64,000 nt of DNA, taken from Nakamurella leprariae. Its GTDB lineage: Bacteria > Actinomycetota > Actinomycetes > Mycobacteriales > Nakamurellaceae. Where the stretch lies: NCBI RefSeq assembly GCF_016918035.1, contig NZ_JAERWK010000003.1:186001-250000 (forward strand), given 5' to 3'. The notes under the pieces were generated by a model that searched no databases, had not been told where the DNA came from, and saw nothing but the letters and a program-made list of their open reading frames with translations. A program made the position numbers and the translations under genes. Positions 46 through 50,097 of this stretch are shown here, piece after piece; the stretch's first letter is position 1; each line of letters starts with the position of its first letter.

Positions 46-282
46 TCACCGGACCGTGCGCAGGAACGCCACCAGGGCGTGGCCGAGCGCCAGAGCCTCC
101 GGCGATCGGTCGCCCTCCGCGATGCCCTTGAGGATGTCGTCCAGCTCGTTGCTGACGTCGAGCAGGTCGAACCGGTCGGCCAGCTCGCGGAGCCGCTGGG
201 GCTGCTCGGCAGCGTTGCGCACCAGCGCCGCTGCGTTCTCTTCCGGGTCGAACGGGACGGGTCGGAACTCGGTCAAGGTCAT
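46..282 (-). CDS. Hypothetical protein, 78 aa, coupled to integrase
   Basis: This is a small acidic, soluble protein with no recognised domain. It starts MTLTEFRPVPFDPEENAAAL and is rich in Glu, Leu and Ala, so it is probably helical. The ATG at 282-280 overlaps the TGA of the integrase gene (ATGA), which argues for translational coupling and fixes the start. A much longer reading frame exists upstream but lies antisense-like inside the integrase gene and has no coding character. It is the last gene of the leftward regulator-integrase-small-protein operon. A role in integration or excision control is only a guess from position. Confidence 0.6.
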   Translation of the reverse strand: MTLTEFRPVPFDPEENAAALVRNAAEQPQRLRELADRFDLLDVSNELDDILKGIAEGDRSPEALALGHALVAFLRTVR

Positions 283-1523
283 CCTCCGTGGATCAGTGCG
301 CCGAGGGCCGTCGCGGCCTCGCGCTGCATGGTGGGCAGGGCGTGCGAGTAGGTGTCGAGCGTGATGCTGATGGTCTGGTGGCCCAGTCGCTCTTGGACGA
401 TCTTCGGGTGGACGCCGGCCACCAGCTGGAGCGTGGCCGACGTGTGCCGCAGTGAGTGCAGGTGGATCACCGGCAGGGTGTGCACCTGGGTCGGAGCGAC
501 CGACTTGGCGGCCTCCGCAAGCTGCCACCGGATGCACCGAGCGACCGACTCCCGGAAGGACCGGGACACCGACTCCGGCAGCCGGTGCCGACCCTCCAGG
601 TCGCCGAACGCCAGCGCGTCCTGGGCGCCGAGCTGGAACGCCAGGCCGGCGCGCCGGGTGCGGTGCGATCGGAGCAGGGCGGCGGTTGCCGGGTCGATGT
701 CGACCACCCGGGCGCGGCCAGTCTTCGTCGGCCCCTCTACCTGCTGCTGAGGCTGGCCCTTCACCTTGATGGTGCCGACCGACCGGCGGACGCTGATCGC
801 CCCGGCATCCAGGTCGACGTCGCGCCAGCGCAACGCCAGCAGCTCCCCGCGGCGCATCCCGGTGGCCACCAGCACCAGCCACGCGGTCCGCTGCTCCGGG
901 TCTGCGTGCTGCTCTGCCCATCCGAGGAAGGTGCCCAGCTCGGCGGCCGACCAGGTCACCATCTCCGGTGGCCGGGCGTCCTTGGCGCTGGGCGGGTCGG
1001 CCACGTCGGCGGGGTTCACCGGGATGAGGCCCTGACGGACCGCGTCCTTCATCGCCTTATGCACGATCATCGCCACGTAGCGGACCGTCCGGGCCGACAG
1101 TCCCCCGGACCCGTCCGCGCGGCCGTCGGCCTCCAGCGACCGGTACAGCGCCGACAGCCGGGAGCCGGTGAGCGCGGCCAGCCGGACCGTGCCGATGCGC
1201 GGCTCCAGGTGCAGCCGGGCGTTCTTGCGATAGCTGGCCATCGTCGACGGCGCCAGCCGGAGACCGTCCAGCCACTCGGCCAGATACTGACCGACAGTGA
1301 TCTTTGACGGCTCCGAGTAGCCGCCTGGGGCTTCGCCCTTGGCCAGCAGGTCCCGGATGCCCGCTGCCGCCGCCTTTCGCGTCGTGAACCCGCGACGCAG
1401 CACAGGCTTCCGAGTGCCGTCGGCCATGGTGACGGTCACCTTGATCAGGTACCGGGTACCGGCCGCCGTGCGGTACTCCGAGATGGTGCCCTCACCGGCT
1501 TGTCGACGACGCGAGCCGGTCAC
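279..1523 (-). CDS. Tyrosine recombinase / phage integrase
   Basis: This 414-aa site-specific recombinase inserts and excises the element. The N-terminus carries an arm-binding-type segment and a SAM-like core-binding domain (roughly residues 75-170). The catalytic domain shows the Arg box TGMRRGELLAL, a Lys in GPTKTGRARVV, HSLRH (His and Arg near 356 and 359), GH near 382 and the nucleophile Tyr near 392 in LDTYSH. All key residues are present, so the enzyme looks intact. The start overlaps the stop of the upstream XRE gene (1520), and the stop overlaps the start of the 78-aa gene. Integrase, regulator and small protein form one leftward operon at the left edge of the element. Confidence 0.93.
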   Translation of the reverse strand: MTGSRRRQAGEGTISEYRTAAGTRYLIKVTVTMADGTRKPVLRRGFTTRKAAAAGIRDLLAKGEAPGGYSEPSKITVGQYLAEWLDGLRLAPSTMASYRKNARLHLEPRIGTVRLAALTGSRLSALYRSLEADGRADGSGGLSARTVRYVAMIVHKAMKDAVRQGLIPVNPADVADPPSAKDARPPEMVTWSAAELGTFLGWAEQHADPEQRTAWLVLVATGMRRGELLALRWRDVDLDAGAISVRRSVGTIKVKGQPQQQVEGPTKTGRARVVDIDPATAALLRSHRTRRAGLAFQLGAQDALAFGDLEGRHRLPESVSRSFRESVARCIRWQLAEAAKSVAPTQVHTLPVIHLHSLRHTSATLQLVAGVHPKIVQERLGHQTISITLDTYSHALPTMQREAATALGALIHGG

Positions 1524-2454: not shown

Positions 2455-2820
2455 GTGCCCAAGCAGTTGCCCCAGGCGGGCGAGGTCCGTGGACAGCTGG
2501 AGGTCGACCTTTCCGACCTCAGCTGGCGGACACCGGACTGCCCCGGCGAGATCGCCCGCCGCTTCTCCCCTCTCGCCTTCGCCCCGGCCCGGGCCGACGT
2601 CAGCATCCGACTGCCACAGGCCGCGCGGCTGCCGGCCGGCGTCTTCCTGCAGGCGTTCGCCGACTTCGCTCAGCACCCGGACCGCCTGAGCTACAAGGTC
2701 ACCGGAACCGCGGATGCCCGCGCGGTCAAGGCCGCGTGCGATGAGCTGCGGGCCGCCGTCCGGATCTGGTCCATGCCGGCCTGCCTGGTCCCTGAGCTCG
2801 ACCCGGCGCTCACCGCGTGA
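2455..2820 (+). CDS. Hypothetical protein, 121 aa, upstream of RepA-like ATPase
   Basis: GTG start with AGGAGGG upstream. It is a soluble protein without recognised motifs. The N-terminal half is beta-like (VRGQLEVDLSDLSW, RADVSIRLPQAARL) and the C-terminal half helical (ADARAVKAACDELRAAVRIW). Its stop overlaps the GTG of the ATPase gene at 2817, so the two are translationally coupled. Proteins in this position of actinobacterial elements are usually uncharacterised; a replication-accessory role is a guess from the neighbour. Confidence 0.65.
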   Translation: MPKQLPQAGEVRGQLEVDLSDLSWRTPDCPGEIARRFSPLAFAPARADVSIRLPQAARLPAGVFLQAFADFAQHPDRLSYKVTGTADARAVKAACDELRAAVRIWSMPACLVPELDPALTA

Positions 2821-3845
2821 CCGCGGCTGTCGCAGCGGTTCCCACTCCCGCTGCCCGGCGACCGGACCCCTGGCGGGCCGGTGCTCACCCCGGCTCGATC
2901 ATCTTCTCCACACCCGAGCAACCACCGGCCATGTGGGGACACCGCGGCGAAGTGCTTTGGGCCGAGGGAGAGTCGCTGCTCCTGGTCGGCACCCCCGGCG
3001 TTGGCAAGACCACTCTCGCCGGCCAGCTGCTCCGCGGTCGACTCGGACTGTCCGACGACCTTCTCGGGTACCCGATCCGAGCCACCAGCAGCCGCGTGCT
3101 GTACCTCGCGATGGACCGACCCGGGCAGGTGGTGCGCTCGCTGCGCCGCCAGTTCCACCACACCGACGAGCGCGTCCTCGCCGACCGCCTTGTGATCTGG
3201 AAGGGCCCGCCGCCCGTCGACCTCGCCCAGGACGACGGTGCACTCCTGCGCTTGGCCGAGATCCACGGCGCTGACACCGTCGTCGTCGACTCCCTCAAGG
3301 ACGCTGCGGTCGGTCTGACCGAGGACATCGTCGGCGCCGCGTACAACCGCGCCCGACAGGTCGCCCTTGCCGCCGGAGTGCAGGTGCTCGAGCTGCACCA
3401 CACCACCAAGCGCGGACCGAACGGCGCCAAGCCCACCGCCCTGGCCGACGTCTACGGCTCGGCATGGATCACCGCCGGCGCCGGCTCGGTGCTGATGCTG
3501 ATCGGCGATGCCGGCGACCCCGTGGTGTCCATGCATCACCTCAAGCAGCCCGCCGAGGTCGTCGGCCCCCTGACCCTGCAGCACGACGCGGCCCACGGTT
3601 CCACCACCGTCGTCGGCGACACCGACCCGCGCACCCTGCTCCGGGCGTCCGGCGCCCGAGGAGTCACGGCCAAGACGCTCGCCGAGGCGCTGTTCGGCAC
3701 CCCCGACCGCAACGCCATCGAGAAGGCCCGCCGCAAGCTCGACGCCCTCGTCCGGGCCGGCGCCGCGGTCAAGGTGCCCGACCCGTCTCACACCTCCGGC
3801 GGCACTCCCGAGTCGGTCTACGTGATTCCGGACAAGGCCGCGTGA
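2817..3845 (+). CDS. RepA-like AAA ATPase (AAA_25) with C-terminal winged helix
   Basis: This 342-aa P-loop ATPase is of the RecA/RepA hexameric-helicase type found in plasmids and integrative elements. Walker A is GTPGVGKTT (about residue 58) and Walker B is TVVVDSLKD (about 155). ELHHTTKRG and GSAWITAGAGSVLML are typical of the AAA_25 group. The C-terminal 80 residues (RGVTAKTLAEALFG and onward) look like a winged-helix DNA-binding unit. GTG 2817 overlaps the previous stop, and its own stop overlaps the next GTG at 3842. It is followed directly by a dense CAGTCACG repeat array, consistent with an initiator or helicase acting at that site; the link is inference. Confidence 0.82.
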   Translation: MTAAVAAVPTPAARRPDPWRAGAHPGSIIFSTPEQPPAMWGHRGEVLWAEGESLLLVGTPGVGKTTLAGQLLRGRLGLSDDLLGYPIRATSSRVLYLAMDRPGQVVRSLRRQFHHTDERVLADRLVIWKGPPPVDLAQDDGALLRLAEIHGADTVVVDSLKDAAVGLTEDIVGAAYNRARQVALAAGVQVLELHHTTKRGPNGAKPTALADVYGSAWITAGAGSVLMLIGDAGDPVVSMHHLKQPAEVVGPLTLQHDAAHGSTTVVGDTDPRTLLRASGARGVTAKTLAEALFGTPDRNAIEKARRKLDALVRAGAAVKVPDPSHTSGGTPESVYVIPDKAA

Positions 3846-4324
3846 GCACCCGCCGAGCAGTCACGGAATCCAGTCACGCACCCCTGTCGGCCGTGACCGG
3901 TCACGACACTCACGGCGCAGTCACGGACGGCGCATTGCCGCAGGTCAGGCAGTTCACGCCTGCAGTCACGGCAGTCACGCGCGGAGCAGTCACGATCGCC
4001 ACCCCCTCTGAAAGAGGGGGGCGACGCGTGCTCGGGCATGAAGTGCTCAGTCCGGGGATGGTCCGGCTCCTCGGCTCCTGCACCTCCGGATGCCTGCACA
4101 GCCGACCTGACAGCCGGTGCTCATGCCGCTGCGGCGGCCCGGCTGTCCTTCCGCGCCATCTCCCGGAATCCGCAGGCGCGTCGGCGCTCGTTGGTATCAG
4201 CTCCGGTATCACGACGGCCGGTGAGCTGACCGATCCCGCCGCTGACGTGCAGCGATGCGCTGCTGAGGCGTGGGACCGATTGTCCTCCGCCACCGCTCGC
4301 GCCGGCTCGGTTGGCCAACCATGA
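3842..4324 (+). CDS. Hypothetical protein with Val-Thr-rich N-terminus, spanning repeat array
   Basis: A 160-aa reading frame joined at both ends by overlaps: its GTG overlaps the ATPase stop (GTGA) and its TGA overlaps the next ATG (ATGA at 4321). The first about 50 residues contain AVT/AVTAVT motifs that are simply the translation of the CAGTCACG array. The middle is Cys-rich (GSCTSGCLHS, RCSCRCGG) and the C-terminus is helical (VQRCAAEAWDRLSSATARAG). No family is recognised. It may be a true protein whose start region doubles as a cis-acting site, or merely an open frame; the double coupling favours translation. Confidence 0.45.
   Translation: MSTRRAVTESSHAPLSAVTGHDTHGAVTDGALPQVRQFTPAVTAVTRGAVTIATPSERGGRRVLGHEVLSPGMVRLLGSCTSGCLHSRPDSRCSCRCGGPAVLPRHLPESAGASALVGISSGITTAGELTDPAADVQRCAAEAWDRLSSATARAGSVGQP
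3858..3994 (+). repeat. CAGTCACG repeat array (iteron-like)
   Basis: Six exact CAGTCACG copies start at 3858, 3871, 3918, 3963, 3972 and 3987. A seventh GTCACG sits at 3900-3905 inside the palindrome GTGACCGGTCAC (3893-3904). Near-copies (ACTCACGG, GTTCACGC) lie between them. Just downstream is a GC hairpin with arms CCCCCTC (4002-4008) and GAGGGGG (4014-4020). The array sits immediately after the RepA-like ATPase gene. Clustered same-orientation short repeats beside an initiator-like gene resemble iterons; replication-origin function is inference. Confidence 0.55.
4193..4212 (-). other. Paired GATACC repeat, inverted relative to the end copies
   Basis: On the minus strand this reads GTGATACCGGAGCTGATACC, two TGATACC copies 12 bp apart. 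It matches the pairs at 20-37 and 13003-13020. It lies inside the 3842-4324 frame. It could be a binding site for the integrase, the excisionase-like protein or the XRE regulator; which one cannot be told from sequence. Confidence 0.35.
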
Positions 4325-4740: not shown

Positions 4741-5274
4741 ATGGCCCCGCCCTGCGCAACCTGCACCCACCCCGACCTCGTGGCCATCGACCAAGCTCTC
4801 GCCGCCGGTCTCGCCTCCGGGCAGCCGTCCCTCCGCCAGCTCGGCGACCAGTACGGCATCGACCGGGCCAGCCTCGCCCGCCACCGCAAGGCCCACCTGT
4901 CCCCGGCGCTCAAGGCCCAGCTGACGAAACGGGAAACCGCCGGTGCCCGCAAGGTCATCGACGAGGTCCGCACCGTGCTGGCCAGCATCCGCGGAGTCCT
5001 GGACCGGGCCGAGACCGCCCAGGACGACCGCACGGTGCTGGGCGCCGCCAAGGAGATGCGGTCCACGCTGGAGCTGCTGGCCAAGATCACCGGTGAGCTG
5101 GACGAGCGGCCCACCGTCCAGGTGCTCAACGTCGCCACCAGCCCGGAGTTCCTGGCCGCGCAGTCCGCGATGATGGCCGCTCTCCGCCCCTATCCCGAAG
5201 CCGCTCAGGCCGTCGCTGCCGCCCTGGCCGGGGTGGGCCAGGGGCAGGGTCATCCGCCGGAACTGATCCCGTGA
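4741..5274 (+). CDS. Terminase small subunit-like protein
   Basis: This 177-aa protein has an N-terminal CATC zinc-type motif, an HTH (LRQLGDQYGIDRASLARHRK) and a long helical central region (RKVIDEVRTVLASIRGVLDR). The C-terminal tail is Ala/Gly-rich. DNA-binding HTH plus helical oligomerisation region, directly upstream of and overlapping the terminase ATPase gene (GTGA at 5271), is the standard layout for a TerS that recognises the packaging site. No database match could be run, so the name rests on architecture and context. Confidence 0.7.
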   Translation: MAPPCATCTHPDLVAIDQALAAGLASGQPSLRQLGDQYGIDRASLARHRKAHLSPALKAQLTKRETAGARKVIDEVRTVLASIRGVLDRAETAQDDRTVLGAAKEMRSTLELLAKITGELDERPTVQVLNVATSPEFLAAQSAMMAALRPYPEAAQAVAAALAGVGQGQGHPPELIP

Positions 5275-6050: not shown

Positions 6051-6781
6051 TCGACCGCACTGTCCCCGGCGCCTTCACCGTCGGGCTGGACCTCGGCCAG
6101 GCCGCCGACTTCTCGGCGCTGTGCGTGATCGAGCACGTCGCCCAGCTGCCGCCCGGGATGACCAGTCACGCGCACCGGGTCCACCTGGTCAGCGCGCTGG
6201 CCGACGCAGTGCGGGTGTTCCAGGTCCGGTCGCTCAAGCGCTGGCCGCTCGGCACGCCGTACACCGTTGTGGCCAAGGATGTCTCGGCCGTGCTGGCTTC
6301 CCCCGCACTGCGGGGCCGCTCGTCGCTGCTGTACGACGCCACCGGCGTGGGCCGTGGCGTCGGCGACCTGCTGTACCAGGAGTACCGCGAGCACTCGCGG
6401 ATCTCGCTGTACCCGCCGACGCCGGTCACGATCACCCAGCAGTCCAAGGCGGACATGGTCTCGACCACGATGCTGGCCTTCGAGCAGGGCCGCCTGCAGA
6501 TCGCTGCCGGCCTGCCACTCGGCGACGCGCTGCGCTCGGAGCTGCTGCGGTTCCAGCAGAACATCCGACCGTCGGGCTCGACGAGCTACGACATCCCTCG
6601 CACCGAGGACGGTCACGGCGACCTGGCGTCCGCGCTCATGGTCGGCCTGTTCTGGAACGACTGGGTCCCGGGCCGCGACCTGATCCGCCTGGTGGACGGC
6701 CCGCCACTCCCCGTCGACGCGGCACCAGATGGCCGCGACCAACGTAACGACATGCGTTACAAATCAGCATCTTTCGAGTAG
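6047..6781 (+). CDS. Terminase large subunit, nuclease half
   Basis: This 244-aa RNase H-fold nuclease corresponds to the C-terminal half of TerL. The metal-binding acidic residues appear in TVGLDLGQAADFSAL, SLLYDATGVGRGVGD and EDGHGDLASALMVGLFW. Together with the ATPase half (ATGA overlap at 6047) it gives a complete terminase of about 500 residues in two chains. A consensus-like promoter lies in its last codons (6757-6784). No portal or capsid gene follows; the next gene is a tape-measure gene. Confidence 0.85.
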   Translation: MIDRTVPGAFTVGLDLGQAADFSALCVIEHVAQLPPGMTSHAHRVHLVSALADAVRVFQVRSLKRWPLGTPYTVVAKDVSAVLASPALRGRSSLLYDATGVGRGVGDLLYQEYREHSRISLYPPTPVTITQQSKADMVSTTMLAFEQGRLQIAAGLPLGDALRSELLRFQQNIRPSGSTSYDIPRTEDGHGDLASALMVGLFWNDWVPGRDLIRLVDGPPLPVDAAPDGRDQRNDMRYKSASFE

Positions 6782-6821: not shown

Positions 6822-9800
6822 GTGTCGGGAACTCTTGATGTCGGCACCCTGGTCGGGTACGTCGACTTCGACCTGTCCGGCATGGACAAGTCGTTCGACG
6901 AGGCCGAGGGCAAGATGTCCCGCTTCGAAGGCGGCATGAGCAAGTGGGCCACGGCGGCCGGCGCCGGCATCGGCCTGGCCCTCGGTGCCGCGGTGGCCTC
7001 GGCGATCAACACCGACGCCGCGAACCGCAAGCTCACCGCGCAGCTCGGCCTGACCAAGGACGAGGCGGCCAGGTTCGGCAAGCTCGGCGGCGAGCTGCTC
7101 GCGTCCGGGTACGGCTCCGGCCTGGAGGACGTCAACGAGGGCATCGCCGCCGTGGTCCGCAACATCGGCGGGATGCGCGACGCCAGCGAGGACGACCTGA
7201 AATCCATTACGGGTCAGGTGATCTCGCTCGCCACCACGATGGGTGAAGACCTCGGCGAGGTCGCCCGGACCGTCGGCGTGATGATGAAGACCGGGATGGC
7301 CAAGGACGCCCAGGAGGCGCTGGACCTGGTCACCGCCGGGCTCCAGTCCCCGGTGAATGCCGCCGGTGACCTGCTGGACACCTTCAACGAGTACTCGACG
7401 ATCTTCCGGACGCTCGGCCTGGAGGGTGAGGACGCGCTCGGTCTGCTGCAGCGGGGGCTCCAGGGTGGTGCCCGCGACGCCGACCAGGTGGCCGATGCGC
7501 TCAAGGAGATGCTGCTCGGCGTCCAGTCCGGTGACTCCCGGGACGCGATCTCCAAGCTGGGCCTGGACTTCGGTGCGCTGCAGCGGGCGATGGCGGCCGG
7601 CGGGGAGCAGGCCAAGACGGCCACGGGCCAGCTGCTCGACGCGTTCACCGCGCTGCCGCCGTCGGTGGAGAAGAACGGCATCGCGGTGCAGCTGTTCGGC
7701 TCCCTAGCCGAGGATGCCCAGGCGGCGCTTTCGTCGCTGGATCCCCGGTCGGCGGCGGCCGAGTTCGAGGCCGCGTTCGGTCCGATCAACGGCTCGGCCA
7801 AGGAGTTCGACGAGACCGTGTCCGGTGGGCTGCAGTCCAGCCTGGACACCCTGCTCGGCAAGGTGAAGTCCTTCGGCGCCGGGGTGGCCGAGGATCTGAC
7901 ACCTGCCTTGCAGGGCGGGATCTCGATCCTCGGTGGTCTGGTCGACGCGCTCGGCCCGGTGCTCGGCCTGCTCGGCGACATCCCGGATCGAGGTCCCCCT
8001 CGTGATCGGCGCGTTCCTCGGTCTCAAGGCCCTGTCCCCGGTCTTCTCCGGACTCAAGGACAACATCCGCGGGTTCCGCGACGAGATGCGCCTCCAGCAG
8101 GCGCTGGCCACGTCGTCCGGGCAGTCGCTCGGCACGATGGGCGCGGCGGCCGCAACCGCCTCGGCTCGGTGGGGTGGGCTGCTCAAGACCGTCGCCGGTG
8201 GCGCCGGCCTGGTCGGGGTCGGGCTGATCATCTCGGCGATCACCTCGGACGTGGCCAAGATGTCGGCCCGGATGGACGTCGCCCGGCAGTCGGCCGACCA
8301 GCTCACTACCTCCCTGGTGGACTCCGGCGGAGCGTGGACCAAGGCCGCGGAGGAGCAGCAGCAGGCCTCCGTCCGCAACTCCGAGGCGTTCAAGGCGCTG
8401 ATCGCGGCCGGCGCCGACTGGGGCCTCACCATGCGCGCCCTCACCGGTGACCTCGGAGCGTTCGAGGAACTGGCCCGCTCCGATGCCTGGTCGAGCCTGG
8501 GCGACTCACTCGACGGCACCGGGCTGATGCGGCAGGCCGCCGCGCTGGCCAACGTCCGCGGCGAGGCCGAGCGCGGCGCCGACGCGCAGCGGAAGTACAA
8601 CCAGGAGCAGGCCGTCGCGGCCACGAACGCCGATGCGGTCGCCGCCGCGAACGGCCGGGTCGCCACCACCCAGGACACCGCGAACGCTGAGCTGCTGGTC
8701 GCCAGCGGGCACGCCAAGGACGTGGCGGAGGGATACCGCCAGCTGGGCGTGATCGCCCCGCCGGCCCTGGAGGACACCGCCACCGCAGCCGAGGGTGTCA
8801 CCGAGTCGCTGAGCCCGATGCAGCAGGCCCTGGAGGACAGCAAGACCGCCGCCAGCGAGCTGGACACCGCCGCCCAGCTGCTCCAGCTGTCGCTGGCCAC
8901 CATGTCCGGCCGGAACGTGGATGCCGAGGTGGCGCAGCGCGCGGCTGCTGCCGCCATCCGGGATGCCGCCGCGGCGGCCCGGGACAAGGTCGACGCCGAC
9001 GCGGCCCAGCAGGCGGCCACGGAGGCGGTCAACCGGCTGACCGAGCAGGGCATCACCACCGGCGAGGAGTACACCGCGGCCAAGCGGGCCGAGACCGAGG
9101 CCATCGCCAAGGCCGCCGACGCCGGGGACCGGCAGGCCGACACGTTGAACAGCGTCACCGGCGCCGCCGCTCAGCAGGCCGCTGCTGCTGCTCGGGCGGC
9201 CGGCGCGAACGGTGACCTCAACGCCGCCGCGCAGGCCGGCGCCCAGCGCATGGCCGAACTCCGGTCGCAGTTCATCGAGGCCCAGGTCGCCAGCGGCATG
9301 GCACGCGACGCCGCCGTCGCCCTGGCCGACGAGTACGACCTGATCCCGGCCAACGTGGAGACCACGATCCGCGCCGAGGCCGACACGTACGTGGCCAAGC
9401 AGGAACTCGACGCCCTTGGCCAGCCCCGGACCGTCCGGTTCAACGCCGTGGTGACCGGAGCGGCCAGCGCGGCCGCCGCGGTCAACAACCTCGCTGCCAA
9501 CCTCGGCCCACCACGAGCCGGGGGCGGTGCCATCTACGGGCCTGGTCCCAGGGGCATCGACTCGGTGCTCACTCCGTCGGCGCCCGGTGAGCACATGCTC
9601 ACCGTCGGCAACGTCGACGCCTTCGGCGGCCAGGCCCAGGTCTACGCCTTCCGTGCCGCCCTGGACTCCGGCGGGCTGGCCGGCGCCGCCGCCTACCTCA
9701 ATCGGGTCGCCGGCTACGCCGTCGGCGACCGCACCGCCAGCAGTGCCCCGGCTGTCCTGATGCCGGCGGCCAGCAGCCCCCGCCACATGACCGTCACCGT

Positions 9801-9912
9801 GCGCTACGACAGCGCACCACTGGATCAGCGCATCACCCGGATCGCCAACATCGAGATCGACCGCGCGGCCGTCGACTTCTCCGAGGGCTGGGACGGACCG
9901 GGGATGTCGTGA
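6822..9912 (+). pseudogene. Phage tail tape-measure protein, frameshifted
   Basis: Two overlapping frames together encode one tape-measure protein of about 1,030 residues. The first part (GTG 6822, SD GGAGGTGA) starts GTLVGYVDFDLSGMDKSFDE and has a Gly/Ala-rich hydrophobic segment (AAGAGIGLALGAAVASAI), as in tape-measure minor tail proteins. It stays in register to LLGDIP near 7985, where the reading moves +1 into EVPLVIGAFLGLKAL and runs to 9912. Removing one G at 7985-7986 restores DIPIEVPLVIG. The C-terminal part is long, Ala-rich and helical, as expected for a tail-length ruler. A mutation or sequencing error is more likely than programmed frameshifting because no slippery heptamer is visible. 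Confidence 0.8.
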
Positions 9913-13020: not shown

Positions 13021-13192
13021 GGCGCGGGCGACCACAATCGACCGGAAGCGACGTCGGGAGGCTGCGGCGGCCCCCGCTCACCGGCGCCGACGTGCAGTTT
13101 CGACCCGAATCGACGCGCATCGACCATGGCGGCCGATGCGTTCAAGTCCCCCCTCGGACACTGCGCTCCACGACTCGCGATCACCGCGGGAC

Positions 13193-14844: not shown

Positions 14845-16632
14845 TCACCGCCCGGCACCCTCCTGCGCGGCGTAGGTCTCCAGCAGCTCCGCCGCATGCC
14901 GCCCGGCCGCGCCCTCCTGCTGCAGTCCGGTCCGCATCTGCTCCAGCTTCGCCGCCCCCGCCGGGAACGGGGGCAGCAGCGGCACGGCCGGGTCGGTGAG
15001 CACCTCCAGGACGACGGGCCGGTCCGCGGTGAGTGCCGCGTCCCAGGCGGCGCCGAGCCGCTCGGGATCGTCGACCCGGATCCCGCGCAGCCCCAGCAGG
15101 TCTGCGTACGCCGCGTACGGGAAGGCCGGCAGGTCCTGGCTGTCGGCGAACCGCGGGTCGCCCTCCATCTCCCGCTGCTCCCACGACACCTCGGCCAGGT
15201 CGCCGTTGTGCAGCACGCACACCACGAACCGAGGGTCCGACCAGCGCGGCCACATCCGCGCCACCGTCACCAGTTCCGCCAGCCCGGTCATCTGCATCGC
15301 GCCGTCCCCGGTCAGCGCGACCAGTGGCCGGTCCGGGCGGTGCAGCTTGGCCGCGATGCCGTACGGCACCGAACAGCCCATGCTGGCCAGCGTTCCGGAG
15401 AGGTGGGCCGGCACCCCGGCCGGCAGCTGCAACTGCCGGGCGTACCAGTAGACGCAACTGCCGACGTCGACCGCCACCTGCGCGTCGGCGGGCAGCCGGC
15501 GGTTCAGTTCCCACACCACCCGCTCCGGGTTCACGGGATCGGCGGGGGTCAGGGCGCGGATCTCGACGAGCGCATGCCAGTCGCGGACGTGCCGCTCCAC
15601 ATCGTCGCGCCAGCCCCGGTCGGTGCGTTCCCGCAACCGCGGCAGCAGGGCGGCCAGCGTCGCCGCGGCGTCCCCGACCAGACCCACTTCGATCGGGTAC
15701 CGGTTGCCGACGTTCCGACCGTCCAGGTCGATCTGCACGGCGCGGGCGGCACCGGGCGGCGGGTAGAACTCGGTCCACGGATCGTTCGATCCGACGATGA
15801 GCAGGGTGTCGCAGTGCCCCAGCAGGTGGGCGCTGGCCGTGGTGCCGAGATGACCCATGGTGCCGACCACGAACGGCAGCGACTCGTCCACGAACGGCTT
15901 GCCGAGCAGGCTGGTGGCGATGCCTGCCCCGAGCCGCTCGGCCACCGCGATCACCTCATCCCGGGCGTGCCGAGCACCCTGACCCACCAGCAGCGCCACC
16001 CGCTCCCCCGCGTCCAGCACGTCCGCCGCGGCCTGCAGGTCGGCGTCGAACGGGAGCACCTGCGACCGCCGCCACTCGGGGGCGGTGGTCACCACGCCGT
16101 GCTCCTGGGCCGGCTCCGGCGCCGGCTGCTGCTGCACGTCGTGCGGCACGATCACCACCGCCGGTGACCCAGTGGCCAGCGCGGCGCGGAAAGCCCGGTC
16201 CAGCACCATCGGCAGCTGCTCGGCCGTGCTGACCTGCTGGGCGAACTGCGCGGCGACGTCCTTGACCAGACCCAGCAGATCGATCTCCTGCATGTACGCC
16301 GAGCCCAGCACACTGGTGTTCTGCTGCCCGACGATCGCGACCACCGGCACGCCGTCGAGCTTGGCGTCGTAGAGCCCGTTCAGCAGGTGGACCGCGCCCG
16401 GTCCCTGGGTGGAGGTCACCACGCCGACCCGGCCGGTGTACTTGGCGTGCCCGACGGCCATGAACGCGGCGTTCTCCTCGTGGCGGGCCTGCACGAACTC
16501 GATCCGGTCGGCGGCCCGGCGCAGCGCCCCCATGAGTGCATTGACCCCGTCGCCGCTGTACCCGAAGACCCGGTCCACGCCCCAGCGTTCCAGCCGCTCG
16601 ACGATGAGGTCGGCGACGAGCGTGTCAGCCAT
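14845..16632 (-). CDS. ThDP-dependent enzyme, pyruvate oxidase type
   Basis: This 595-aa protein belongs to the acetolactate synthase/pyruvate oxidase family. The catalytic Glu lies in QARHEENAAFMAVGHAKYTG. The ThDP/Mg2+ motif is ALTGDGAMQMTGL and then VLHNGD. The central domain (VALLVGQGARHARDEVIAVA) is the FAD/ADP-binding-like fold. YSGDGVNALMGAL near the N-terminus is typical of the thiamine-pyrophosphate-requiring proteins near pyruvate:quinone oxidase PoxB. MADTLVADL was chosen as start (16632) since the homologous fold begins there; longer in-frame starts exist. Product (acetate, acetyl phosphate or acetolactate) cannot be decided from sequence. Confidence 0.85.
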   Translation of the reverse strand: MADTLVADLIVERLERWGVDRVFGYSGDGVNALMGALRRAADRIEFVQARHEENAAFMAVGHAKYTGRVGVVTSTQGPGAVHLLNGLYDAKLDGVPVVAIVGQQNTSVLGSAYMQEIDLLGLVKDVAAQFAQQVSTAEQLPMVLDRAFRAALATGSPAVVIVPHDVQQQPAPEPAQEHGVVTTAPEWRRSQVLPFDADLQAAADVLDAGERVALLVGQGARHARDEVIAVAERLGAGIATSLLGKPFVDESLPFVVGTMGHLGTTASAHLLGHCDTLLIVGSNDPWTEFYPPPGAARAVQIDLDGRNVGNRYPIEVGLVGDAAATLAALLPRLRERTDRGWRDDVERHVRDWHALVEIRALTPADPVNPERVVWELNRRLPADAQVAVDVGSCVYWYARQLQLPAGVPAHLSGTLASMGCSVPYGIAAKLHRPDRPLVALTGDGAMQMTGLAELVTVARMWPRWSDPRFVVCVLHNGDLAEVSWEQREMEGDPRFADSQDLPAFPYAAYADLLGLRGIRVDDPERLGAAWDAALTADRPVVLEVLTDPAVPLLPPFPAGAAKLEQMRTGLQQEGAAGRHAAELLETYAAQEGAGR

Positions 16633-16838
16633 GGCGGGGCTCCGTCCGTGCAGCGGGGTCATCGGTCCTGGACCCTGTTCCCCGTCACGAGCCTGCTTGC
16701 GCCTCGCGCACCGCGACCCAGCACGGACGCTCGCCACCTGGCTCGATGCAGCGATCACCCGCGGCCAGCTGGCGGGTGACTGCCGTCACCTCGCCCGGGA
16801 GACTCGCGTGATCACTGTCAACGGAGACAGGAGTCGCC

Positions 16839-20892: not shown

Positions 20893-21735
20893 TCATCGAG
20901 CACCGCTGCGCTCGCGCGGCAGCTGCTCGCCGGCCTCGACCGCGATGGCCAGCCGGTTCTCGGTCGGCGGCAGCGGGCAGGTGGCCAGGTCGGTGTAGGC
21001 GCAGGGCAGGTTGGTCGCCCGGTTGAAGTCGAGCCGGACACTCCCGTCCGCGGCCGGCGGGTCCAGCGAGAGCACCCGGTTGGCGGCGTAGGTGGTGACG
21101 CCCGAAGTGGCGTCGGTGAACAGGATCATCAGCGAGCCCGGCCGGGAGCCGGGGAACGCGGTGAGCGCCAGCGGCTCGCCCTCGAACTCGAACTCGACCC
21201 GTCCCGGGGCGTCGTACACGTGCTCCAGGCCCTCCACCGCCGCGCCGACGGTGGTCGGCCGGGGTGCGTCGAACGGCACGTACCGGGCCGGCACCGCCCA
21301 GCGCGGATCCGGGGCGTAGGCCGGAGTGCCGGTGAAGGCCGTCCGCAGGGGGTGGTCGGGATGCCGCGGTCGCAGGATGTCGTGTCCACCGCGCTTGGCC
21401 ACCTCGAGCACGCTGTCCCGCCAGCCGGCCAGCACGCCGCCGCGCTCGACGATCACCCCGAACCGGTGCTCGCCGGTGACCCGGGCCCCGTCGACGGTGA
21501 TGGCCTCGCCCTCGTCCAGCACCACGACCGGGCCGTCCGGGCCGGTGGTCCAGGTCCCGGGCGCATCCGGGAACCGCTGCGGCTCGTCGGTCAGCCAGTG
21601 CAGGGAGGTGACGGCCAGGAACCCGTGCGGGTCGGCCAGCCGGGTCTCGTGGTCGCGGTGCCAGGCTCGCCACTCAGCAGCGAACGCTGATCGGTCGGCG
21701 CCGGGGTCGGTCGGGACGGTCGGTGTGCTGGTCAT
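20893..21735 (-). CDS. DUF1684 family protein
   Basis: This 280-aa protein matches the DUF1684 pattern: ADPHGFLAVTSLHWLTDEPQ near the N-terminus, a central beta-rich part, and the C-terminal signature NRATNLPCAYTDLATCPLPP followed by TENRLAIAVEAGE. The family has no assigned biochemical function. It is soluble, without a signal peptide. It is the first structural gene of a three-gene leftward operon (DUF1684, M20 hydrolase, ATP-grasp). A 31-codon leader peptide lies 95 bp upstream, so its expression is probably controlled by attenuation in response to sulfur or cysteine supply. Confidence 0.8.
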   Translation of the reverse strand: MTSTPTVPTDPGADRSAFAAEWRAWHRDHETRLADPHGFLAVTSLHWLTDEPQRFPDAPGTWTTGPDGPVVVLDEGEAITVDGARVTGEHRFGVIVERGGVLAGWRDSVLEVAKRGGHDILRPRHPDHPLRTAFTGTPAYAPDPRWAVPARYVPFDAPRPTTVGAAVEGLEHVYDAPGRVEFEFEGEPLALTAFPGSRPGSLMILFTDATSGVTTYAANRVLSLDPPAADGSVRLDFNRATNLPCAYTDLATCPLPPTENRLAIAVEAGEQLPRERSGAR

Positions 21736-21784
21736 GGACGCTCCAGAGCGGGATCGGGGACGGCGGATCGGCCGGCCGTGCGAG

Positions 21785-21816
21785 CGGTCGGGCGGTCGGG
21801 CGGTCGGGCGGTCGGG
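21785..21816. repeat. Four tandem CGGTCGGG units
   Basis: Four exact 8-bp copies of CGGTCGGG run without spacers. They lie between the leader-peptide stop and the DUF1684 start, within the predicted 5' untranslated RNA. They could contribute an attenuator structure or be a simple slippage repeat. Nothing else gene-like is seen between 21736 and 21830. Confidence 0.6.
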
Positions 21817-33713: not shown

Positions 33714-35117
33714 GTGCGCTACTCGAGCATCATCCGGGGGCAGTCCCACGAGTTCGACGGGCTGGTGGAGTTGCTGGCCAAGGCGTCACCCCGCCGCTCG
33801 GGCGACGAACTGGCCGGGTGTGCGGCGGTGTCCGAGACCGAACGCACCGCGGCGCAGTGGGCGCTGGCCGACGTGCCGCTGGCCGACTTCCTCACCGAGG
33901 ACGTGGTGCCGTCCGACACCGACGAGGTGACCCGGCTGATCCTGGACGGTCATGACCGGGCCGCGTTCGCCCCGGTCTCCTCGCTCACCGTGGGCGGGTT
34001 CCGGGACTGGTTGCTGGCCACCGCCACTCGGCCGGATGCGGCCGGGACCCTCGCGGGGCTCGCGCCCGGGCTGACGCCGGAGATGGTGGCCGCGGTCAGC
34101 AAGCTGATGCGCAACCAGGACCTGATCGCCGTGTCCCGAGCGGTGCAGATGACCACCGCGTTCCGCACCACCATCGGCGGCGCCGGTCGGCTGGCCACCC
34201 GGCTGCAACCGAACCACGTCACCGACGACGCCACGGGGGTCGCCGCCGCCGTGCTGGACGGGCTGCTGCTCGGCTGCGGGGACGCGGTGATCGGCATCAA
34301 CCCGGCGTCGGACTCCCCCGCCACCACCCGGCGGCTGCTCGAGCTGCTCGACCAGGTCCGCACCCGGTACGACATCCCCTGCCAGACCTGCGTCCTCACC
34401 CACGTCACCACCACGCTGCAGCTGATCGAGCAGGGTGCCCCGGTGGACCTGGTGTTCCAGTCGATCGCCGGGACCCAGGCCGCGAACCGGAGTTTCGGCA
34501 TCGACCTGGCCCTCCTGGCCGAGGCGCACGATGCGGGCCGGTCGCTGGGCCGCGGCACCGTCGGACAGCACGTCATGTACTTCGAGACCGGGCAGGGCTC
34601 GGCCCTGTCGGCCGGCGCTCACCTGGGCGTGGGCGGCCGGCCGGTGGACCAGCAGACGCTGGAGACGCGGGCCTACGCAGTGGCCCGGGCCTTCGACCCG
34701 CTGCTGGTGAACACCGTGGTCGGGTTCATCGGCCCCGAGTACCTGGCCGACGCCAAGCAGATCACCCGGGCCGGGCTGGAGGACAACTGCTGCGGGAAGC
34801 TGCTCGGCCTGCCCATGGGCGTGGACGTCTGCTACACCAACCACGCGGACGCCGATGCCGACGACATGGACGACCTGGCCGTGCTGCTGGCGGTGGCCGG
34901 GACGGACTTCGTCATCACCGTGCCCGGCGGCGACGACGTGATGCTCGGGTACCAGAGCCTGTCGTTCCACGACGCGCTGTTCCTGCGGCGCTCGCTCGGC
35001 CTGCGCCCGGCGCCGGAGTTCGAGCGTTGGCTGCTGCGGATGGGTCTGCTGGCCGAGGACGGCTCGGTGCTGGAGATCGACCCGCGCCGCTCCGGTCTGT
35101 CGGAGCTGACCGCATGA
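33714..35117 (+). CDS. eutB: Ethanolamine ammonia-lyase large subunit
   Basis: EutB, 467 aa, is the TIM-barrel catalytic subunit that with EutC and adenosylcobalamin converts ethanolamine to acetaldehyde and ammonia. Conserved stretches include VSKLMRNQDLIAVSRAVQMT, RLQPNHVTDDATGVAAAVLD, GCGDAVIGINPASDS, and NHADADADDMDDLAVLLAVA. VPGGDDVMLGYQSLSFHDAL closes the domain. GTG 33714 lies 26 bp after the acylase gene, in the same operon, and the stop overlaps eutC. No EutA reactivase, no microcompartment shell and no acetaldehyde dehydrogenase gene is present in the window. Confidence 0.95.
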   Translation: MRYSSIIRGQSHEFDGLVELLAKASPRRSGDELAGCAAVSETERTAAQWALADVPLADFLTEDVVPSDTDEVTRLILDGHDRAAFAPVSSLTVGGFRDWLLATATRPDAAGTLAGLAPGLTPEMVAAVSKLMRNQDLIAVSRAVQMTTAFRTTIGGAGRLATRLQPNHVTDDATGVAAAVLDGLLLGCGDAVIGINPASDSPATTRRLLELLDQVRTRYDIPCQTCVLTHVTTTLQLIEQGAPVDLVFQSIAGTQAANRSFGIDLALLAEAHDAGRSLGRGTVGQHVMYFETGQGSALSAGAHLGVGGRPVDQQTLETRAYAVARAFDPLLVNTVVGFIGPEYLADAKQITRAGLEDNCCGKLLGLPMGVDVCYTNHADADADDMDDLAVLLAVAGTDFVITVPGGDDVMLGYQSLSFHDALFLRRSLGLRPAPEFERWLLRMGLLAEDGSVLEIDPRRSGLSELTA

Positions 35118-48381: not shown

Positions 48382-50097
48382 TCAGGCCTGGGTGCGGCCG
48401 CGACCCTGCAGGTACCGCGACACCAGGGTGGCCGTGCTGCTGTCCTGGCCGCTGGTGCTCTCCTCGCCGGTGAGCATCGGCGCCAGCTGCTTGGCCATGG
48501 CCTTGCCCAGCTCGACGCCCCACTGGTCGAAGCTGTTGATGCCCCAGATGACGCCCTGCACGAAGGTGATGTGCTCGTAGAGCGCCACCAGCTGGCCGAG
48601 CACCGACGGGGTCAACCGTTGGGCCAGCATCGAGGTGGACGGCCGGTTCCCCGGCATCACCTTGTGCGGCACCACCGCCGCGGCCACGCCCTCGGCCGCG
48701 ATCTCGTCGGCCGTCTTGCCGAAGGCCAGCGCCGCGCTCTGCGCGAAGTAGTTCGACATGAACAGGTCGTGCACGTCGACCGGCGTGGTCGCACCGGGCG
48801 CATCGGCATCGGTCAGCTCGTGGTTGGGCTCGATGAACCCGATGAAGTCGGCCGGGATGATCCGGGTGCCCTGGTGGATCAGCTGGTAGAAGGCGTGCTG
48901 TCCGTTGGTGCCGGGCTCCCCCCAGAACACCTCACCGGTGGGCACCTGCACCGGTGAGCCGTCCAACCGCACCGACTTCCCGTTGCTCTCCATGGTCAGC
49001 TGCTGCAGGTAGGCCGGGAAGCGCAGCAGGTACTGCGAGTACGGCAGCACCGCATGGCTCTGCGCCCCGAAGAAGTCGACGTACCAGACGTTGAGCAGCC
49101 CGAGCAGCACCGGCGCGTTCCCGGCGAACGGCTCGGTGCGGAAGTGCTCGTCCATGGCGCGGAAGCCGGCCAGCATCTCGCCGTACTGGTCCGGTCCGAT
49201 GGCCAGCATCAGCGACAGGCCCACCGCGGAGTCGAACGAGTACCGCCCCCCGACCCAGTCCCAGAACCCGAACATGTTGTCGGTGTCGATGCCGAACTCG
49301 GACACCAGGTCGGCGTTGGTGGACACGGCCACGAAGTGCTTGGCCACCGCATCGGCGGCGGCCGGATCGTCGAGACCAGCACCGGTGCGCAGCCCTTCGG
49401 TCAGCCAGGTCCGGGCCAGGCGCGCATTGGTCAGCGTCTCCAGGGTGGAGAACGTCTTGGACGCAACGATGAAGAGCGTCGACGCGGGGTCGAGATCGCG
49501 CGTTTTCTCGAAGATGTCGGTCGGGTCGATGTTGGAGACGAAGCGGCACTCCAGCTCTCTCATGGCGTACTGCTTGAGGGCCTCGTGAGCCATGACCGGA
49601 CCGAGGTCCGAGCCACCGATGCCGATGTTGACGACAGCACGGATGCGCTTGCCGGTGGCACCGGTCCAGCGGCCGGTGCGGACCGCGTCGGCGAAGGCAC
49701 CCATGCGGTCGAGCACCTCGTGCACCTCGGCCACCACGTCCTGGCCGTCGACGGTCAACTCGGCGGTGCGCGGCAATCGCAGCGCGGTGTGCAGCACGGC
49801 CCGGTCCTCGGTGACGTTGATGTGCGCACCGGCGAACATGGCGTCGATCCGCTCCCGCAGGCCGGCCGCCTCGGCCAGGTCCAGCAGCAGCGACACGGTC
49901 TGCCGGGTGATGCGGTGCTTGGCGTAGTCGACGGTCAGGTCGGCCGCCTGGACGACCAGTTCGGATCCGCGGTCCGGGTCCTGGGCGAACAACTCACGCA
50001 GGTGCAGTCCCTCGACCTCGGCGAAGTGCTGCTGCAGCGCCGACCACTGCGGCGAACCGGCGGTGTCGAACACCGCCGGCACGGGACTGGGGTTCAC
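48382..50097 (-). CDS. pgi: Glucose-6-phosphate isomerase
   Basis: This 571-aa glycolytic/gluconeogenic enzyme interconverts glucose 6-phosphate and fructose 6-phosphate. Signatures are [57 protein letters not shown], and the C-terminal family pattern [17 protein letters not shown] 50097 with AGGAGG upstream is the start; the longer frame upstream is antisense-like. Length is close to the usual 550 residues. It is a single-gene unit, divergent from the enoyl-CoA hydratase gene. Confidence 0.95.

Follow-up and report, generated by a model that had tools for sequence, protein, structure and literature searches.

A candidate iteron origin beside a RepA/DnaB-type helicase with a C-terminal winged helix in an integrated phage-like element of Nakamurella leprariae

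The locus and the element that carries it

Near the left end of the window (the whole 64-kb stretch of Nakamurella leprariae DNA that was analysed), a gene for a RecA-fold helicase is followed by a short stretch of densely repeated DNA, and both lie within an integrated element. The features discussed below are listed here with their coordinates, strand and basis; the motif at 3939–3948 and the degenerate unit at 3950–3958 had escaped an earlier, sequence-only reading of this DNA.

279–1523, minus strand: tyrosine integrase of the element (Phage_integrase, 3.8e-17; phrog_1, 2e-68)
2817–3845, plus strand: RepA/DnaB-type (RecA-fold) helicase, the proposed origin-reading initiator (phrog_6012, AAA_25, Foldseek)
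3612–3842, plus strand: C-terminal winged-helix domain of the helicase, residues 266–342 (AlphaFold model)
3708–3755, plus strand: predicted recognition helix, residues 298–313, RNAIEKARRKLDALVR (AlphaFold model; contains 301 and 302, the residues whose identity covaries with the unit)
3842–4324, plus strand: open reading frame over the array, probably incidental (no family; copies not all in one frame)
3858–3865, plus strand: unit 1, CAGTCACG (exact copy)
3871–3878, plus strand: unit 2, CAGTCACG (exact copy)
3893–3904, no strand: palindrome GTGACCGGTCAC, two inverted half units (sequence)
3918–3925, plus strand: unit 3, CAGTCACG (exact copy)
3939–3948, plus strand: motif CGCAGGTCAG, including CAGGTCA at 3941–3947 (conserved in relatives)
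3950–3958, plus strand: degenerate unit CAGTTCACG in the +9 slot (sequence and slot geometry of relatives)
3963–3970, plus strand: unit 4, CAGTCACG, +22 from the motif (exact copy, slot geometry)
3972–3979, plus strand: unit 5, CAGTCACG, +31 from the motif (exact copy, slot geometry)
3987–3994, plus strand: unit 6, CAGTCACG, +46 from the motif (exact copy, slot geometry)
4002–4020, no strand: terminal GC hairpin CCCCCTCTGAAAGAGGGGG (sequence, folding)
13140–13162, plus strand: right attachment core of 23 bp (exact match in the tRNA-Leu(gag) gene, 3' end region)

The helicase has 342 residues and matches the phrog_6012 DNA helicase profile over residues 27–324 (1.8e-104) as well as AAA_25 (1.1e-16). 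This strong profile match, together with a RecA-fold core carrying Walker motifs, places it in phrog_6012 and among the RepA/DnaB-type helicases, and residues G61, K64, D158, H194 and H195 are invariant among 17 aligned members. The AlphaFold model of the full protein (pLDDT 92.3) returned DnaB as the top Foldseek match, followed by KaiC and T7 gp4. It ends in a winged helix (pLDDT 87.6 for residues 266–342 alone), which Foldseek matches weakly to MarR, Fur and ArsR proteins (best E 0.05, none reaching 0.001). Seven of ten scanned relatives, picked partly for their N-termini, carry N-terminal primase- or DnaB-type domains (Prim-Pol in one, DnaB-N in five, Toprim with a zinc ribbon in one), and these fusions fit a role as a replication protein. 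The window helicase has no N-terminal primase-type or DnaB-N domain, and it would depend on a primase from the host or from a helper.

The sequence-only reading had described an array directly after a P-loop ATPase with a winged-helix end, and this description stands: unit 1 begins 13 bases past the final base of the stop codon at 3845. The six exact copies of CAGTCACG, the palindrome and the GC hairpin that it reported within 163 bp (3858–4020) were all located. A seventh copy occurs in the 64-kb window only at 6163. Six copies in a comparable stretch are unmatched by any other 8-mer of the window, the runner-up having five. Among 5,000 dinucleotide shuffles of 3858–4020, the maximum was three copies of any 8-mer. 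Folding of the DNA at 3978–4042 gave z = -3.08, with equal stability in 1 of 200 shuffles. Next in density among the 8-mer clusters of the window are five copies of CGGTCGGG in about 100 bp at 21708–21816.

The extent of the element is given by a 23-bp identity between the 3' end region of a tRNA-Leu(gag) gene (7939–7961 of L292) and window positions 13140–13162. The tRNA copy lies about 40–60 bases to the left of the window, and the repeat pair thus sets the size of the element at about 13.2 kb. Besides the integrase and helicase, its genes include an HTH_17 protein, a protein weakly matching an HTH repressor, terminase pieces (with a terminase large subunit at 5271, 1.3 kb downstream of the array), a tape measure and a tail chaperone. 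The tape measure follows directly after the terminase, with no head genes between them. The earlier suggestion of a live, autonomously replicating element is not supported: the element is integrated at tRNA-Leu, no portal, capsid/head or primase gene was recognised among 20 scanned element ORFs, and the tape-measure reading frame is split (6822–8450 and 7933–9912), by either a frameshift or a sequencing error. The element may be decayed or a satellite. To its right, ARAGORN calls a tRNA-Ser at 15038–15128 on the minus strand, within a long ORF on the same strand (14845–16758); this call is probably false.

Repeat arrays at related helicase loci

Homologues of the helicase were collected from GTDB contigs (4 loci) and IMG/VR (77 loci with profile A1, then 12 and 3 further contigs). 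At E 0.001, homologues were present in 9 of 298 genomes of the order, 28 of 394 of the class and 8 of 396 of the phylum, all three counts taking in weak partial matches and the genome of the window itself. Phage records yielded 27 homologues, every one from a mycobacteriophage, and tblastn found no relative in 72,556 plasmid records. For the array survey, 95 scanned loci less 16 near-duplicates, plus the window, gave 80 loci; homologues with tblastn E >1e-15 and one locus that was too short (L126) were left out, and L001, L026 and L027 duplicate either the window or L009.

An array lies within 500 bp of the winged-helix end at 48 of the 80 loci (p<=0.005, 200 shuffles), and so the search for an array beside homologues of the ATPase, which the sequence-only reading had proposed, finds one in most of them. 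At least five copies of one 7-mer were counted at 39 of 80 loci; among control stretches the figure was 1 of 78 upstream and 6 of 77 downstream. CAGGTCA was present at 37 of 80 loci and in 3 of 78 and 7 of 77 of these controls. A degenerate array with the motif or a hairpin can be seen by eye in L016, L061, L071, L117 and L078. Eight loci without an adjacent array have one elsewhere, 0.6–4.7 kb off the gene (L060, L122, L091, L093, L115, L119, L010 and L073); six of the eight include the motif, and the array is inverted in L010 and L073. L077 shows a weak trace only, and L257, which has E302, has no array within 600 bp. In a search for the motif and spaced TCACG only, 13 viral stretches matched. 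Ten of these have the helicase. Two more, which were cut off, belong to contigs on which the helicase later turned up next to the array (L165, L203), and the last is an isolated chance occurrence. The search is only partly independent, as five of the contigs had been part of the set before. A strict array-first pattern matched none of 396 genomes, the window's own among them.

The architecture of the arrays was analysed in a set of 50 with p<=0.01. Unit copies are mostly in one orientation (329 forward, 33 inverted), and the commonest of 279 spacings are 12 (59), 9 (25), 11 (20), 10 (13) and 15 (12). The units themselves are diverse, with 30 distinct by eye in the 50 arrays (whose 39 top 7-mers include register shifts of one unit) and 41 in the full table of 65 loci; GGTGCACG and GGTGGACG are examples from other elements. 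Since 36 of 65 units end in TCACG, much of this variation is confined to three letters. CAGGTCA, frequently within AAAACCGCAGGTCAG or GTTTCCGCAGGTCAG, precedes the last group of units, which occupy slots at +9/10, +20–22, +30–32 and +46 from the motif (41 motifs at 32 loci, counting only motifs that have two or more unit copies within range). These positions hold irrespective of the unit sequence, and the window has its slots at +9 (degenerate), +22, +31 and +46. Many loci have units on both sides of the motif, and by eye a short A/T run (AAAACC/GTTTCC) stands before it; no obvious AT-rich melting region was seen by eye. Next to the last unit, 36 of 50 arrays have a stem of at least 6 bp, as do 38 of 289 control stretches not matched for GC, and the stems after the last unit are typically GC-rich with a small AT-rich loop. 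In 12 of the 36 stems an inverted unit copy, with one mismatch allowed, follows the hairpin loop (for example in L018, L109 and L124), which makes the last unit part of a longer palindrome.

A GC hairpin at the end of the array, and placement on the gene strand in most loci, are what a terminator, an antitermination site or a structured RNA element would show. No TTTT occurs within 12 nt past the stem in any of the 36 cases, however, and on this ground a classical terminator was rejected. Rfam returned just two matches, far below gathering scores, unit sequence varies between elements and some placements are inverted, all of which make an RNA element highly improbable.

The repeat is conserved as DNA; conservation at the protein level would have spoken against the earlier reading. 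Copies fall in more than one reading frame in 49 of 50 arrays and in all three frames in 33, and this, with the eight displaced arrays, identifies a DNA element rather than a protein repeat. The sequence-only reading had also taken the array as the Val-Thr-rich start of a coupled ORF. The frame exists (3842–4324) but is probably incidental, matching nothing in Pfam or PHROG at E 0.1 and holding only five of the six CAGTCACG copies in the same frame position. A repeat coding for a Val-Thr-rich peptide or linker could appeal to that shared frame, to the 132 of 279 spacings that are divisible by 3 and to the arrays placed inside the helicase ORF in L006, L009, L097, L107 and L120, although in most loci the array follows the gene. 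We attribute the excess of spacings divisible by 3 to slots of 9, 12 and 15. The mixed frames, and arrays that are displaced or inverted, reject a Val-Thr coding repeat, whose likelihood we put as negligible.

Position also bears on whether the array is an operator, through which the winged helix would regulate its own or downstream transcription while the origin lay elsewhere. The array does stand between the helicase and the downstream genes, and the fold resembles repressor winged helices in the weak Foldseek matches. Yet it mostly comes after the helicase gene, is well removed from it at the eight displaced loci and is inverted in two of these, and the layout of motif, slots and hairpin would in our judgement be unusual for an operator, which we hold to be distinctly unlikely.

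Within 5.5 kb, the only protein family found in more than 10 of the 80 loci is the helicase, ORFs antisense to it aside, in a count for which flanks were shorter in genome loci and families were not named. Among the neighbours, the largest family looks terminase-like by eye and is present at 10 of 80. The terminase large subunit encoded 1.3 kb downstream in the window might suggest a packaging site read by that enzyme, but with the terminase-like family so infrequent and the helicase constant, such a site is extremely improbable.

Covariation of the winged helix with the repeat unit

Every helicase column (317) was compared with every unit position across 49 loci with less than 80% identity. 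The comparison was limited to 8-letter units ending in ACG; the chief exceptions to the code are units outside this register (for example those of L012, L019, L109 and L118), which were omitted. Of the 317 columns, residue 301 came first against unit positions 2, 3 and 4, and residue 302 against position 5; both lie on the predicted recognition helix. A run with 40 loci was similar, but residue 298 led position 3. For position 1 the leader is A246, outside the recognition helix, and 301 comes fifth. Columns outside the winged helix also score, namely V105 for position 5, L143 for position 2 and L167 and P86 for position 4.

G at position 4 accompanies K301 in 6 of 6 loci and is found in 1 of 39 without K301. 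C at position 5 occurs with E302 in 40 of 45 loci, leaving five exceptions, and with K or R at 302 in 1 of 10 (L106, K302), where G5 is found in seven of the ten. Unit assignment was visual, with manual correction of position 5 in three cases; the Fisher p for residue 302 and position 5 is 0.0023 without and 2.8e-6 with these corrections. Sixteen loci came from later searches; 14 have E302, of which 13 have an array, and C5 is present in 13 of 13. Because nine of these arrays are of one unit type and seven had already been seen via the TCACG pattern (six were fresh), they amount to a weak test, and the later loci give no test of K301 or K302. On a tree of 65 tips, 20 of whose 62 forks are open, the unit changes at least 50 times. 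Independent supported pairs on this tree number six for residue 302, with 3.7 going the same way and 1.0 the opposite way (p 0.375, not significant and underpowered), and two for residue 301, about 2.0 going the same way.

These data also bear on whether some other protein, either a host factor or a divergent small protein of the element, binds the units and the helicase is loaded indirectly, as in RSF1010 and lambda. RSF1010 divides the work between a RepA-type helicase and a distinct iteron reader, RepC, with RepB' as primase, so that the origin is read by a protein other than the helicase, whereas the window helicase has a fused winged helix. A general Pfam/PHROG scan of 20 element ORFs gave no match to the RepC iteron binder or to the RepB' primase. 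There is no other widely shared protein at the loci, and the residues that covary most strongly belong to the predicted recognition helix of the helicase itself. We therefore regard a separate reader as unlikely.

A centromere-like partition site is another use to which such repeats are put, and passages of PMC7157519 describe parS loci of this kind, built on 8-bp repeats, in extrachromosomal mycobacterial prophages: those of RedRock have an 8-bp motif in eight direct copies. The window element, however, has an integrase and is sited at tRNA-Leu, and the covariation points to the helicase. No other family was found at more than 10 of the 80 loci, in a count without family names, so that a minority of loci may have ParB. 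No parA or parB was found among 20 scanned element ORFs. We consider a parS array very unlikely.

A candidate origin and its known counterparts

Taken together, the sequence comparisons make it highly probable that the 163-bp stretch is an iteron replication origin recognised by its own RecA-fold helicase. The earlier proposal of an iteron origin tied to a RepA-like helicase thus gains from co-occurrence, fixed geometry, unit diversity and recognition-helix covariation; the living autonomous element is the part that finds no support. In the mechanism that we propose, the CAGTCACG units would be the iterons of the origin of a 13.2-kb integrative phage-like element, and the neighbouring helicase would bind them through its C-terminal winged helix, with recognition-helix residues 301 and 302 helping to set unit positions 2–5. 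Origin recognition for DnaB-like replicative helicases is usually the task of a separate protein; a helicase that reads its own iterons would be initiator and replicative helicase in one. Helicases bound at the slots from the CAGGTCA motif to the hairpin would form a row, separate the strands of the short A/T run ahead of the motif and load themselves on the exposed strand, and a primase may land or prime at the motif and hairpin. We infer each of these steps, that is binding, melting, loading and priming.

With less assurance, we judge it rather probable, again from sequence, that this is a widespread class of origin in phages and prophages, mostly actinobacterial. In such a class, a helicase with a residue-to-base code in its winged helix (301 and 302 to positions 2–5) would read diversified iterons in a layout of CAGGTCA, slots and hairpin, and each type of element would have a private origin that avoids cross-replication. 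If so, one chain would combine the helicase with the origin reader and, among some relatives, with primase-type domains, and the letters of a compact origin would track the recognition helix of its reader. The class would predict origins in unannotated phages and could explain how related elements escape each other's replication, and its natural protein–site pairs could serve tests of winged-helix recognition and compatible actinobacterial vectors.

The principle of reading by a helicase is already known, given the precedent of SaPI Rep and SCCmec Cch2, whose C-terminal domains recognise repeats just 3' of their own genes according to passages of PMC7581432 and PMC6092414. SaPI and PICI origins as described there resemble the window in having short element-specific iterons directly 3' of the helicase gene, a trait from which the eight loci with an array elsewhere depart. 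The SaPI Reps are other helicases, the SaPIbov1 type resembling DUF927 Cch and the SaPI5 type Primase_Cterm/D5 (in the sections of PMC7581432 concerned), and the window helicase has no DUF927 or D5 match in Pfam or PHROG. E. coli PICI origins have two iteron sets flanking an AT-rich region (a passage of PMC6092414), an arrangement not evident by eye in the window, and the CAGGTCA motif and terminal hairpin set the window type apart from SaPI/PICI origins. SCCmec Cch2 is like the proposed reader in that its C-terminal domain binds direct repeats just downstream (PMC7581432), but it is a 3'-5' helicase of D5 type with three 5-nt iterons, AAGTG.

RSF1010 RepA, treated as the helicase of that plasmid in a passage of PMC8965321, is like the window protein a RecA-fold hexameric replicative helicase. 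The profile match to its structure (1g8y) covers 147 positions but is weak (E 0.006), ranking below generic P-loop matches such as LRRK2 (E 0.002), and by sequence RSF1010 RepA would be a distant relative at best. Among the matches listed in open-licence PMC literature, no account of the array or of an origin-reading RepA-type phage helicase was recognised, which does not imply absence from print. The helicase family, the layout of motif, slots and hairpin and the visible code are what we have not met for known systems in that literature.

The homologues in phage records are the 'DNA primase/helicase' proteins of Omega-group mycobacteriophages and Gaia (27 records), with 43–46% identity over 85–87% of the query. 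No array of the window type was found in 99.4 of the 108.3 kb of Mycobacterium phage Redno2 (L129) or in 50 of the 90.5 kb of Mycobacterium phage Gaia (L130). The aligned mycobacteriophage homologues have E at 305 and K or A at 302, and hence may use another site. At the right genome end of Gaia (49766–49902), a stretch without annotated genes or unit repeats holds four motifs of the CAGGTCAG type, one forward and three inverted. Redno2 has a single CGCAGGTCAG at 33859, between genes 155 and 156 and with no array around it, and one unrelated dense repeat, nine copies of ACGCCGC in gene 102.
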